DNA of 64,000 bases from Hyphomicrobiales bacterium. Its GTDB lineage: Bacteria; Pseudomonadota; Alphaproteobacteria; Rhizobiales; Methyloligellaceae. Where the stretch lies: assembly GCA_021775525.1 (NCBI GenBank), contig JAJFHQ010000005.1, forward strand, positions 29,686 to 93,685, written 5' to 3'. Shown one piece after another: positions 1-13,504 of the stretch. Made by a program: the position numbers and the translations under genes. Every line of letters starts with the position of its first letter. Position 1 is the first letter of the stretch. The notes beneath the pieces were generated by a model. The model was not told where the DNA came from, ran no database searches, and saw nothing but the letters and a program-made list of their open reading frames with translations.

Positions 1-2097
1 AACTTCCGAGAGCATCGAGTTGATGACCTCGTAATGCGCCTGGGTCGCGGCGATATGGTTGAGTGGAGTGAACTTTTCTTCAGTCTTCTGATCGTTCAGC
101 ACCGAATGACGCTGGGAGAACGTACCACGTTCACAATCCTGACCTGACAGGCGCACCCGGTAGCGCTCGCGCAGCAGCGTGCCAAAGGCCAGCGCCTCGG
201 CGAACGACCAGTCGATGGCCGTACCCTCCTCGATCATCTTGCGCCGGCTTTCCATGAACCGGTTGACGGTTCGGTGAATGTTGAACCCTTCGGGCACGCG
301 GGAAATGGCGACGCCGATCTCCTTGAGCCATTCGGTTTTTACACCTGTTTCACCGCGGCGTGCGCCTTCCTCGGCATGACCCAATCCTGACCATTGGCCA
401 TCCATCCAGTCCGCCTTGTTGGGCTTGTAGGAATCACCAATCCTGAATTCTTCTTCCAGCATACTCCTCATATCGGAGCGCATGGTTTCAAATTCATCGA
501 CCGTCAGAGAGCCTTCTTCAATCAGGCGGCTGGAATAAACATCAACTACAGTCGGGTGAGAGCGAATTTTTTGATACATCAACGGCTGGGTGAAGGATGG
601 CTCATCACCCTCATTGTGACCGTGACGCCGGTAGCAGAACATGTCGATAACGACCGGTTTGTGGAATTTCTGGCGGAACTCGGTTGCAACCTTGGCAACA
701 TGGACAACCGACTCCGGATCATCGCCATTCACATGGAAAATCGGCGCCTCGATCATCCGCGCCACATCCGAGGGATAGGGCGAGGAACGTGAATTGTGAG
801 GCGATGTCGTAAACCCGATCTGGTTGTTCACGATAAAATGTATCGAACCTCCAGTTCGATGACCGGCCAGACCCGACAGGCCGAAACATTCCGCGATGAT
901 ACCCTGGCCCGCAAAGGCCGCATCACCATGAAGAAGCAGTGGCATGACCTTGGTGCGCTCTTTGTCGCGCCTCTGGTCCTGTTTCGCGCGCACCTTGCCG
1001 AGCACTACCGGATCGACAATTTCCAGATGCGAGGGATTGGCCGTGAGCGAGAGATGGACATTGTTGCCGTCAAACTCACGGTCGGATGAAGCCCCGAGAT
1101 GATATTTTACGTCGCCCGAACCCTCCACGTCGTCCGGGTTGGCAGAGCCGCCCTTGAACTCGTTGAAGATGGCGCGGAACGGCTTGCCCATAACATTGGC
1201 GAGCACGTTCAGCCGGCCCCGGTGCGGCATTCCGAGTATGATCTCTTCCACGCCAAGCGAACCACCGCGCTTGATGATCTGTTCCAGCGCCGGGATTGCC
1301 CCCTCGCCGCCATCGAGACCAAAGCGCTTGGTGCCGGTATATTTGACATCGAGGAATTTCTCGAAGGCCTCAACCTCAACCAGCTTGGTAAGGATGGCTT
1401 TTTTGCCTTCAGGTGTGAACGCAATTTCCTTGTCCTTGCCCTCGATGCGCGCCTGGAGCCAGCCCTTCTGCTCGGGCGTCGAGATATGCATGAACTCGAC
1501 ACCGATCTTGGCGCAGTAGGTGCGCCTGAGGATTTCGATGATCTCCCGAATGGTGCCGAACTCAAGGCCGAGCACGTAATCGAGAAAAATCTTGCGGTCG
1601 TAGTCGCGCTCGGTGAAGCCGTAAGACGCCGGCTCCAGTTCCTGATGGGCTTCCTTCTTCTCCAGCCCCAGTGGATCGAGGTCCGCCGCCAGGTGTCCAC
1701 GCACCCGGTAAGAACGGATCAGCATGAGGGCACGCACTGAATCACGCGTTGCGGCAAGCGCCAGATCACTGGTGAGTTCAACCCCGAGAGTTTGCGCCCG
1801 GCCCTGGATGCGATTGCCCAGCTGCTGCTCAACCGGGCCCCAGTCCCCATCGAGTGCGCTCACCAGCTCGCCATTGTCAGGCACCGGCCAACCGGTGCTT
1901 TTCCACGACGGCCCTTCAGCCTCCTTCAGGACCTCTTCTTTGTTGTCCTTGAGGTCGCGGAAAAACGCCTGCCAGTCGCCGTCGACCGAGTCCGGATTGT
2001 TTTGATATTGAGCATAAAGCTCTTCGATATAGTCCGCGTTTGCACCATGCAGAAATGACGTGCGTGCCAACGCTTCATTCAGGTCTTGCCGTGCCAT
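1..2097 (-). CDS. sucA: 2-oxoglutarate dehydrogenase E1 component, 3'-truncated by window edge
   Basis: Thiamine-diphosphate dependent decarboxylase of the 2-oxoglutarate dehydrogenase complex, which turns 2-oxoglutarate into succinyl groups passed to E2. The ORF track misses it because it runs off the left edge. Reading the minus strand from ATG at 2097 gives 699 codons with no stop. It begins MARQDLNEALARTSFLHGAN, the typical alphaproteobacterial OdhA start, and contains the conserved stretches MPHRGRLNVLANVMGKPF, HGDAAFAGQG and FIVNNQIGFTT. A full-length protein is near 980-1000 residues, so about 300 C-terminal residues lie outside the window. It is the last visible gene of the mdh-sucC-sucD-sucA cluster, with an 85-bp gap after sucD. 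sucB and lpd would be expected beyond the edge. Confidence 0.97.
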   Translation of the reverse strand, partial: MARQDLNEALARTSFLHGANADYIEELYAQYQNNPDSVDGDWQAFFRDLKDNKEEVLKEAEGPSWKSTGWPVPDNGELVSALDGDWGPVEQQLGNRIQGRAQTLGVELTSDLALAATRDSVRALMLIRSYRVRGHLAADLDPLGLEKKEAHQELEPASYGFTERDYDRKIFLDYVLGLEFGTIREIIEILRRTYCAKIGVEFMHISTPEQKGWLQARIEGKDKEIAFTPEGKKAILTKLVEVEAFEKFLDVKYTGTKRFGLDGGEGAIPALEQIIKRGGSLGVEEIILGMPHRGRLNVLANVMGKPFRAIFNEFKGGSANPDDVEGSGDVKYHLGASSDREFDGNNVHLSLTANPSHLEIVDPVVLGKVRAKQDQRRDKERTKVMPLLLHGDAAFAGQGIIAECFGLSGLAGHRTGGSIHFIVNNQIGFTTSPHNSRSSPYPSDVARMIEAPIFHVNGDDPESVVHVAKVATEFRQKFHKPVVIDMFCYRRHGHNEGDEPSFTQPLMYQKIRSHPTVVDVYSSRLIEEGSLTVDEFETMRSDMRSMLEEEFRIGDSYKPNKADWMDGQWSGLGHAEEGARRGETGVKTEWLKEIGVAISRVPEGFNIHRTVNRFMESRRKMIEEGTAIDWSFAEALAFGTLLRERYRVRLSGQDCERGTFSQRHSVLNDQKTEEKFTPLNHIAATQAHYEVINSMLSEV

Positions 2098-11412: not shown

Positions 11413-12540
11413 TTACGTAACTTCCGGCTCCGCGTCACCCCGTGCGCGCTCCAGATATTCCTGGGAACGCATTTCTATCAAGCGCGACGCCGTGCGCTCG
11501 AAAAGTTCTCCGCCATCCGGGATGGTATAAAGCTCATCTGGCTGGGCATCCGCTGACAGCACCAACCGCACGCCATTATCGTAAAGCGTGTCGATGAGAT
11601 TGATGAAACGCCGCGCCTGATTGCGATGCACCACTTCCATGACCGGTACATTTTCAATCAACAGGATCTGGTATGCGTGGGCAATCAGCAGGTAGTCGCT
11701 GGCACCGAGGGGCTTGCCGCAGAGATCTTCAAAATCAAACCGCGCGACGCCCATTGCGGCTTCCGGGATTGCAACCTTGCGGCTCTTGACCTTGATCACT
11801 GCAGGCTCACCTTTTTTTACACCGGTGAGCCGCTCAAAAGTTTCACGCATAGCCTTGGCTGCTTTTTTGTCCGACGGGCAGAAATAGAGCGGCGTGCCCT
11901 GCAACTTCTCAAGCCGGTAATCGGTCGCGGCTTCCAGTTGCAGGACTTCCAGCCTGTCCTCCAGCAACGCGATGAAAGGCTCGAACAGGGGCCTGTTCAA
12001 GCCATGCCTGTAAAGGTCTGTAGGGTGCGCGTTAGACGTTGCCACCATCACCACGCCGGCTTCGAACATTGCCGTGAACAGCCTCCCGAGGATCATGGCA
12101 TCGGCAATGTCTGTGACATGCAGTTCATCAAAACAGAGCAGGCGCGCTTCGCTGGCAATAGACGCCGCGCTGGCCGGGATAGGGTCGCCTTCATGCGCTT
12201 TTCGAAAGTGGGCGATCAGCTCATGTACCTCGCCCATGAATTCATGAAAATGCACCCGGCGCTTTGGCTCGAAGGGCACGGCATCGAAGAACAAATCCAT
12301 CAACATGGTCTTGCCGCGCCCGACACCACCGAACATGTAGAGACCTTGCGGAACCTCTCCACTCTTGCGCGTGAAGAAAGAAAACAGGTCGGTTTTTTTA
12401 GGAGGCTCATATTGCGACAGGCGATTCGCCAGCAGTTCGAGCTTTTCAGCCGCAAGAAGCTGAGCCGGGTCAGGGGCGATAGTCCCCTCCTCAACCAGAG
12501 ACCTGTAGCGATGTAACGGCCCGTTCTCCATGTCCCTCAA
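11413..12540 (-). CDS. zapE: cell division protein ZapE (AFG1-like ATPase)
   Basis: P-loop ATPase linked to Z-ring destabilisation and, as AFG1 homologue, to membrane-protein quality control. It is 375 aa, full length. Walker A is GGVGRGKTMLMDLFF, Walker B is LLCFDELHVTDIADA, and an N-terminal LHRYRSLVEEGTIAPDPAQ is typical of the family. In many alphaproteobacteria zapE is just upstream of mdh. Here tcuA and tcuB follow it with a gap of about 37 nt or an overlap, so they are probably co-transcribed, and mdh lies about 6 kb further on. Confidence 0.95.
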   Translation of the reverse strand: MRDMENGPLHRYRSLVEEGTIAPDPAQLLAAEKLELLANRLSQYEPPKKTDLFSFFTRKSGEVPQGLYMFGGVGRGKTMLMDLFFDAVPFEPKRRVHFHEFMGEVHELIAHFRKAHEGDPIPASAASIASEARLLCFDELHVTDIADAMILGRLFTAMFEAGVVMVATSNAHPTDLYRHGLNRPLFEPFIALLEDRLEVLQLEAATDYRLEKLQGTPLYFCPSDKKAAKAMRETFERLTGVKKGEPAVIKVKSRKVAIPEAAMGVARFDFEDLCGKPLGASDYLLIAHAYQILLIENVPVMEVVHRNQARRFINLIDTLYDNGVRLVLSADAQPDELYTIPDGGELFERTASRLIEMRSQEYLERARGDAEPEVT

Positions 12541-12605: not shown

Positions 12606-13019
12606 CTAGCACTCGATCGCCCGCACATGCCCCTCGCCCGCATAGGACAGCATGGCGGCATCGCGAGTTATGATGGTGAGCGCGTAGGTTCGCGCAGTAG
12701 CAATCAGAAGCCTATCTGCGACATCCCCCGGTGGTGCTCCGGGCAAAAAGGACGATTCGATGTAAATATTGGGGGTGAGGTCCGCGAGGCCGACCCCTGG
12801 CATCTCAACAATGGTCTCGAACCAGCTCTGCACCGGCATGGACAGGACCAGCCTGCGTGCGGATGCGAGCACGCCCACTTCCCATGCCGACGTGGGCGAA
12901 ATCCACACATCATGCTCTCTCATGGCCGTATCGACCAGTTCCAGGGCCGGGGCTGAAAATTCCGCCTCCTCCATGAGCCAGAGCAGCGCACAGGTATCTA
13001 GCAGCACACCATCGCTCAC
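12606..13019 (-). CDS. PIN domain (VapC-like) ribonuclease toxin
   Basis: 137-aa PIN-domain protein, the length of VapC toxins that cut RNA. It starts VLLDTCALLWLMEEAEFSAP, with the first catalytic aspartate in LLDTCALLW. The central acidic residue lies in SAWEVGVLAS, the later aspartates in GDVADRLLIATA and ITRDAAML. It overlaps the upstream gene by 4 nt (ATGA), the usual toxin-antitoxin coupling with the antitoxin first. The upstream partner is not a standard VapB. Confidence 0.9.
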   Translation of the reverse strand: MSDGVLLDTCALLWLMEEAEFSAPALELVDTAMREHDVWISPTSAWEVGVLASARRLVLSMPVQSWFETIVEMPGVGLADLTPNIYIESSFLPGAPPGDVADRLLIATARTYALTIITRDAAMLSYAGEGHVRAIEC

Positions 13020-13399
13020 TGCGCGTCTCCTGACCCGGCGCCCCCGGTCGGCTGGGTCAGGTCGGTTCCAGCCACCATTTGCACAACACCCTTGAGGGCA
13101 CCGTGAAGGGTTTTTCCGGGTATCCGACCGCGCCGGGCATGCGCCGGCCTTATGCCCCGCCCTTTCAGGAATGTCACTTGCTGGTTCTGCAGATCAACGT
13201 CCTGCGTCCTCCAACCGGCGTCAAGCCAGGCCAGGGAGTGAGAGTGTCCGGTGGCGTCGTTGCTCCACCAGGCCGGATAGGCATAAGCACTGCGCGGCAG
13301 GGAGAAGCCCAGCACTCCTTCTATTTCCGCGAAGGTCGCGCGCCAGCGGGTGGGTTTGCCGCCAGCCAGATGCTTGCGAAGAGGGTCATATTTGCCCAT
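13016..13399 (-). CDS. DUF7662-type protein, putative antitoxin of the PIN toxin
   Basis: 127 aa. The N-terminal about 80 residues (MGKYDPLRKHLAGG, then FAEIEGVLGFSLPRSAYAYP and AWWSNDATGHSHSLAWLDAG) match my memory of the DUF7662 family. The C-terminal tail, KTLHGALKGVVQMVAGTDLT, resembles the short toxin-neutralising tails seen after the DNA-binding domain in some type II antitoxins. No AbrB, ribbon-helix-helix or Phd fold is evident. Its position upstream with a 4-nt overlap to the PIN gene, and an AT-rich palindrome before its start, make it the likely antitoxin. That role is inference. Confidence 0.65.
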   Translation of the reverse strand: MGKYDPLRKHLAGGKPTRWRATFAEIEGVLGFSLPRSAYAYPAWWSNDATGHSHSLAWLDAGWRTQDVDLQNQQVTFLKGRGIRPAHARRGRIPGKTLHGALKGVVQMVAGTDLTQPTGGAGSGDAQ

Positions 13400-13413
13400 A
13401 GGACATATCGCCT

Positions 13414-13431
13414 GTTATTATATATATTAAC
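13414..13431. promoter_or_regulatory. 18-bp near-perfect palindrome, candidate toxin-antitoxin operator
   Basis: GTTATTATATATATTAAC is a palindrome apart from one mismatched pair, centred about 23 bp upstream of the DUF7662 start codon. It sits where the -10 region of the toxin-antitoxin promoter should be. Type II antitoxins usually bind such repeats to repress their own operon. No binding evidence can come from sequence alone. Confidence 0.5.
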
Positions 13432-13504
13432 ATATGTAAGGGCGAAAACCTCAGTGGGCAAGCCAAATATTCGCAAGCCGGTTGTCGAATTCAGGAGAAA
13501 CCAA

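Follow-up and report, generated by a model that had tools for sequence, protein, structure and literature searches.

A 64,000-nucleotide stretch of DNA from a Hyphomicrobiales bacterium, referred to here as the window, contains a gene pair that, from its sequence, is best called a VapBC-like type II toxin-antitoxin module with a DUF7662-headed antitoxin. The antitoxin reads as a chimera in which a Phd-type neutralising tail has come to lie under a swapped-in DUF7662 head, because the same tail occurs under other heads in the same PIN toxin lineage and because the clade of DUF7662-linked PINs sits inside a Phd-linked radiation. These results tie a domain of unknown function to a testable mechanism, and the pair illustrates the assembly of antitoxins from exchangeable parts.

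Both genes are encoded on the minus strand. The antitoxin gene (13016..13399, ATG start, 127 amino acids) specifies a DUF7662 head, a linker and a C-terminal tail, and directly downstream of it is the gene for a VapC-like PIN-domain toxin (12606..13019, GTG start, 137 amino acids). As an earlier note on this DNA had stated, the two open reading frames (ORFs) share four nucleotides, the start/stop overlap GTGA (13016..13019, minus strand). A 4-nt or other short overlap is common among relatives of the pair, and translational coupling across the junction is likely. The same note had described the PIN ribonuclease as standard, a description that holds: PF01850 matches residues 5-127 (E 6.3e-10) and all catalytic acidic residues are present, with D8, E47, D99, D102 and D120, as well as the C-terminal Cys137, invariant in an alignment (A2) of 13 PIN proteins of the window lineage. 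The locus thereby displays two features of a VapBC-like system, namely a PIN protein with conserved acidic residues and a small, overlapping antitoxin gene directly upstream. Within the genus, both genes are demonstrably under purifying selection (dN/dS 0.05-0.17).

The DUF7662-like domain that had been proposed for the upstream partner is clearly recognizable, with PF24698 covering residues 4-77 (13169..13390, minus strand) at an E of 7.1e-16 and 58.2 bits against a gathering cut-off of 26. No further Pfam domain was recognized in the protein and NCBIfam has nothing for it; antitoxins headed by DUF7662 are, in this way, missed by profile annotation. PADLOC and PHROGs hold no match for the pair, two scans of viral contigs found no relatives, and none of the profiles for antitoxin, tail and PIN had a significant match among PDB sequences.

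Searches for DUF7662 covered 41 relatives, genomes sampled from the phylum (399) and from the order (398), and a set of 84,980 species genomes; they yielded 91 loci, of which 88 are distinct once three that had been fetched twice from the same contig are removed. A rarity of DUF7662 proteins near PIN genes, which the earlier note would have counted against its own reading, is not observed: they lie directly before one in 38 of the 88 distinct loci. The PIN belongs to the window lineage in 32 of these, which come from many families of the order and also from further orders within the class, and to other lineages in the remaining six. As far as sampled, PIN proteins are the only toxins that adjoin DUF7662 antitoxins. 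Because the pairing recurs in 32 distinct loci, it is not a matter of chance. Approached from the toxin side, a profile of the PIN lineage gave 17 strong matches (E <=4e-46) in 199 genomes of the order, every one preceded by an antitoxin of DUF7662 type (one, L107, being too divergent for Pfam). Below these came a gap, followed by PINs at E 2e-22 and weaker, with a Phd/YefM antitoxin upstream wherever the partner was readable. An exclusive partnership of this PIN lineage with DUF7662, which the 17 of 17 in the order sample might suggest, was rejected, since Phd, Xre and RHH heads appear in wider samples.

The putative neutralising tail of the window antitoxin (13022..13126, minus strand; core LHGALKG..........DLTQPT) is delimited by profile match and alignment; the consensus for the tails of DUF7662 antitoxins is hPLFGALKGxhxhxxGxDLTxPxxxxW. 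The tail profile (A4) detects the tail in the window genome with an E of 3.9e-12, the window tail itself being a member of that profile, and matches the antitoxin in 32 of 32 window-lineage loci, from whose members it was built, and in none of the 56 other distinct DUF7662 loci. Among the ORFs of PIN-lineage loci, the profile extends to Phd antitoxins (E 2.1e-10, 2.1e-8, 2.7e-7 and 4.1e-5), an Xre antitoxin (L194, E 1.6e-14) and RHH antitoxins (L187 and L188, E 2.8e-8 and 2.9e-5). The nearest Phd antitoxins end, for example, in GLFGALKGKIRISDDFNELGPEWDEYIK (L118), RVFGALKGKLSVPDTFFEPLPEDELKRWW (L160) and RVGALKGQIRMAEDFDVLGPEWDAYVR (L161). A profile made from DUF7662 antitoxin tails only reached a summed 55 bits on 13 Phd proteins, whereas none of 100 column-shuffled profiles exceeded 10, and the sum was still 30 without L160 and L161, both of which had originally been found by tail search. 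In a tail-profile scan of 150 genomes, 16 matches were strong and roughly 100 weak; four of the weak ones have a PIN gene immediately downstream, for which the chance expectation, estimated from the bases covered, is well under 0.01. The resemblance to the neutralising ends of other antitoxins that the earlier note had remarked upon is thus substantiated, and the tail appears to be homologous to, or is at least profile-matched by, the Phd, Xre and RHH tails of the same toxin lineage. A small ORF at L137 (about 1473-1650, plus strand; ..PLYGFLRGSLCIRKGVDVTKPAAPEWG..) consists of the neutralising tail alone (tail profile E 6e-9); it follows a gene of glutamine-amidotransferase type (TrpG/PabA-like), has no PIN gene as a neighbour, and is possibly an orphan antitoxin.

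A PIN profile was applied at E 1e-20 to 385 genomes from the class and 399 from the phylum. Reading the gene upstream of the matches revealed four heads over one PIN lineage: DUF7662, Phd/YefM, an Xre-type HTH (L194) and a PSK/VapB-type RHH (L187, L188). The Phd/YefM head accounts for most of 45 loci of this lineage. Pfam names these heads HTH_3 (1e-6, L194) and PhdYeFM (2e-9 for L177 and L173, weaker for L167 and L169), while the RHH head of L187 and L188 is weakly assigned (PSK, 0.017). The window PIN shares 43% identity with those of L167 and L169, and the Xre-linked PIN of L194 is among the closest to the PIN profile (E 2.6e-52). In a midpoint-rooted tree of 86 PINs, those linked to DUF7662 form one clade (99/88), which also holds L194 (100/84 with L018). 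A small Phd-linked clade (L167, L169, L177, L198) is sister to it, the two being joined at 99/99, and both lie inside the radiation of Phd-linked PINs, a placement by which the phylogeny records a replacement of the head. The simplest history would start from a Phd module in which DUF7662 took the place of the head once and Xre did so later in one line, with RHH acquired independently elsewhere; the direction from Phd to DUF7662 is taken from the breadth of the Phd-linked set, the tree being midpoint-rooted. A tree of DUF7662 domains joins the window genus with L035, which has a PIN of another lineage (99/88), a hint that heads may have recombined repeatedly; a single origin is not rejected (AU p 0.12), and we make no claim of such recombination. 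With four heads placed on a tree while toxin lineage and neutralising tail stay the same, these antitoxins constitute a natural series that allows a direct test of whether antitoxin evolution proceeds by the exchange of DNA-binding heads while a linear neutralising motif remains fixed. The suggestion that the pair represents an antitoxin class unusual for VapBC systems is supported, with one refinement: to call the protein a Phd-type VapB whose head has been exchanged describes it better than to place it in an entirely new class.

We consider the following model, taken as a whole, to be probable. The pair would be a chromosomal type II toxin-antitoxin module, in which the PIN protein is a VapC-like RNase and presumably toxic. 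The C-terminal tail of the antitoxin (xFG-h-KG-x-h-x-h.....DLTxP) would enter the PIN active-site groove, as VapB and Phd tails do, and so neutralise the toxin. The N-terminal DUF7662, having taken over the position of the Phd domain in an ancestral Phd-PIN module, would serve as a dimerisation and DNA-binding head, autorepressing the operon at palindromes before the start codon. Candidate sites are the operator-like palindromes TGTTAATATATATAATAACA and ACATATGT just upstream of the antitoxin start (13413..13437, minus strand). The motif TAACATA/ACATATG is conserved at this place in the genus, with TAACATA present in 6/6 loci against 0.27 expected from shuffles, where the near-variant of the window is counted by its overlapping word. 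An operator motif common to all families was sought upstream of DUF7662 antitoxins and was not found; the top upstream word outside the genus is TTGACA, a -35 box.

Operator binding and dimerisation are the likeliest roles for DUF7662, because this head occupies the position taken by three DNA-binding folds in its counterparts. AlphaFold2 models it with a mean pLDDT of 86 over residues 1-83 (81-96 within the block of residues 1-80), in the predicted order H-E-H-H-H-H-E-E (H5-12, E18-22, H23-30, H36-40, H42-45, H53-60, E63-69, E74-79), a topology that would be compatible with a winged helix. Foldseek comparison of the full and domain-only models with the PDB gave nothing significant (best E 0.7, TM at most 0.50); CtsR, CodY and other wHTH proteins were among the top matches, without significance. 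From the indirect evidence of its position and of the motif upstream in the genus, DNA binding by DUF7662 is probable, with a sensing role as its main rival.

According to that rival, DUF7662 acts in an accessory capacity, as a sensor or recognition module akin to Panacea, for which multidomain antitoxins provide a precedent (described in PMC10440598), and not as an operator-binding head; the tail would still neutralise, and toxin release would be triggered through DUF7662. The wider occurrence of the domain lends this some weight. Among the antitoxins with DUF7662 and different tails that accompany other PIN lineages (L035, L009, L052, L058, L012, L038), which in themselves fit the model above, two, L035 and L058, bear a FitA-like RHH segment beside DUF7662 (PF22513, below its cut-off), such that DUF7662 is there not the sole candidate for the DNA-binding part; L038 has two copies of DUF7662, and the tail of L012 is VapB-like by eye. 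The domain is also found in stand-alone and other PIN-less proteins, including ones annotated HNH or GIY-YIG and a fusion with an Hjc-like nuclease, and since it is present in such nuclease-type proteins its general role may exceed operator binding. The 32 window-lineage loci nevertheless have DUF7662 in the exact place of the Phd, Xre-HTH and RHH heads, with no other recognized domain, and the palindrome upstream of the antitoxin is conserved in the genus, so that we judge the sensor to be unlikely, though a serious alternative to the DNA-binding head. Fusions of DUF7662 to a PD-(D/E)XK/Hjc-like domain are seen in actinobacteria (L046, PF01870 E 1.7e-4; L042, by resemblance). A further reading, which we hold only tentatively, would make DUF7662 a domain not previously described, with a DNA-binding (winged-helix-like) or sensing function, that acts as an exchangeable head on at least three kinds of PIN-antitoxin tail and, outside toxin-antitoxin systems, as a targeting domain of nucleases and small regulators.

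The chromosomal surroundings of the pair vary. In the genus, zapE (AFG1-ATPase) follows it in 6/6 loci (11413-12540 in the window). Other families of the order have a long, PIN-less DUF7662 protein of about 230-260 amino acids next to zapE, sometimes with mmsA on its far side; the loci with zapE beside DUF7662 are the window, L036/L083, L065, L068, L072, L075, L077, L080, L085 and L086, and two DUF7662 architectures thus occupy one chromosomal place. At L066, L069 and L082 the pair lies directly upstream of gatB, with gatA upstream of the pair in L066 and L082 (both genes named by resemblance; they encode the amidotransferase for tRNA charging). In many families the pair is flanked on one side by a glutamine-synthetase-like gene, ending ..TDWELxRGFER, and on the other by a gene for aldehyde dehydrogenase (L010, L016, L055, L059, L060, L067, L081 and others).

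These settings bear on the idea that the pair has been domesticated for RNA regulation and is tied to the genes around it, and is not an addiction or defence module. Such a role would fit the fixed place beside zapE in the genus, the settings between glutamine-synthetase-like and aldehyde dehydrogenase genes or between gatA and gatB in other families, the strength of the purifying selection and the finding of a single PIN gene in the window genome. The chromosomal places differ between families, however, and the tail and heads have been exchanged as in ordinary toxin-antitoxin modules; we therefore think domestication rather improbable, although it is compatible with a toxin-antitoxin origin. 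That the DUF7662 domain itself blocks the toxin, leaving the tail as a linker only, is very unlikely: the antitoxins of L009, L012, L035 and L038, with their other PIN lineages and other tails, speak in its favour, but it is the tail, not the head, that tracks the window PIN lineage across four heads, and the tail is absent from 56/56 distinct DUF7662 loci without a PIN of that lineage. Chance adjacency of two unrelated genes is refuted by the neighbourhood survey, with the same gene order and short or overlapping junctions in 32 distinct loci.

The toxin-antitoxin reading can be set beside known systems. DUF7662/PF24698 is not mentioned in the open-access papers searched, where we found no earlier description of it, and in the portions of the two surveys at hand it is neither among the PIN-associated antitoxin families of Makarova 2009 (PMC2701414) nor in the 2023 survey (PMC10440598). 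The former lists PHD-PIN with 276 pairs and gives COG2442, COG2880, COG1753 and MerR as new PIN antitoxins. The toxin and tail of the window would belong with these PHD-PIN modules, having the same PIN lineage, the same C-terminal tail, and the same gene order and overlap. In place of the Phd/YefM head, however, the window antitoxin has DUF7662; PF02604 (Phd/YefM) finds no match in it, and because it is without the Phd domain we do not file it under Phd/YefM, though its tail is of that kind. With VapBC systems that have an RHH, AbrB, MerR-like or COG2442 antitoxin, the pair shares an acidic-site PIN toxin, a small overlapping upstream antitoxin and a presumed VapC-like mechanism, and differs in a head that is none of the DNA-binding folds listed in the text consulted. 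The Xre-PIN pair of L194 and the RHH-PIN pairs of L187 and L188 have the same toxin lineage and the same tail, but their heads are HTH_3 (Xre) or an RHH of PSK/VapB-like type where the window antitoxin has DUF7662. That a linear element can neutralise the toxin while the head above it is exchanged is an established principle, set out in PMC10440598 as a model of DNA-binding domain plus linear motif with Phd-C and Panacea as examples. Like the Panacea/NetFlax antitoxins described there, which combine an exchangeable domain with a C-terminal element of its own for neutralisation, Phd-C for instance, the window antitoxin is built from two such parts, with a different domain, DUF7662, as its head.
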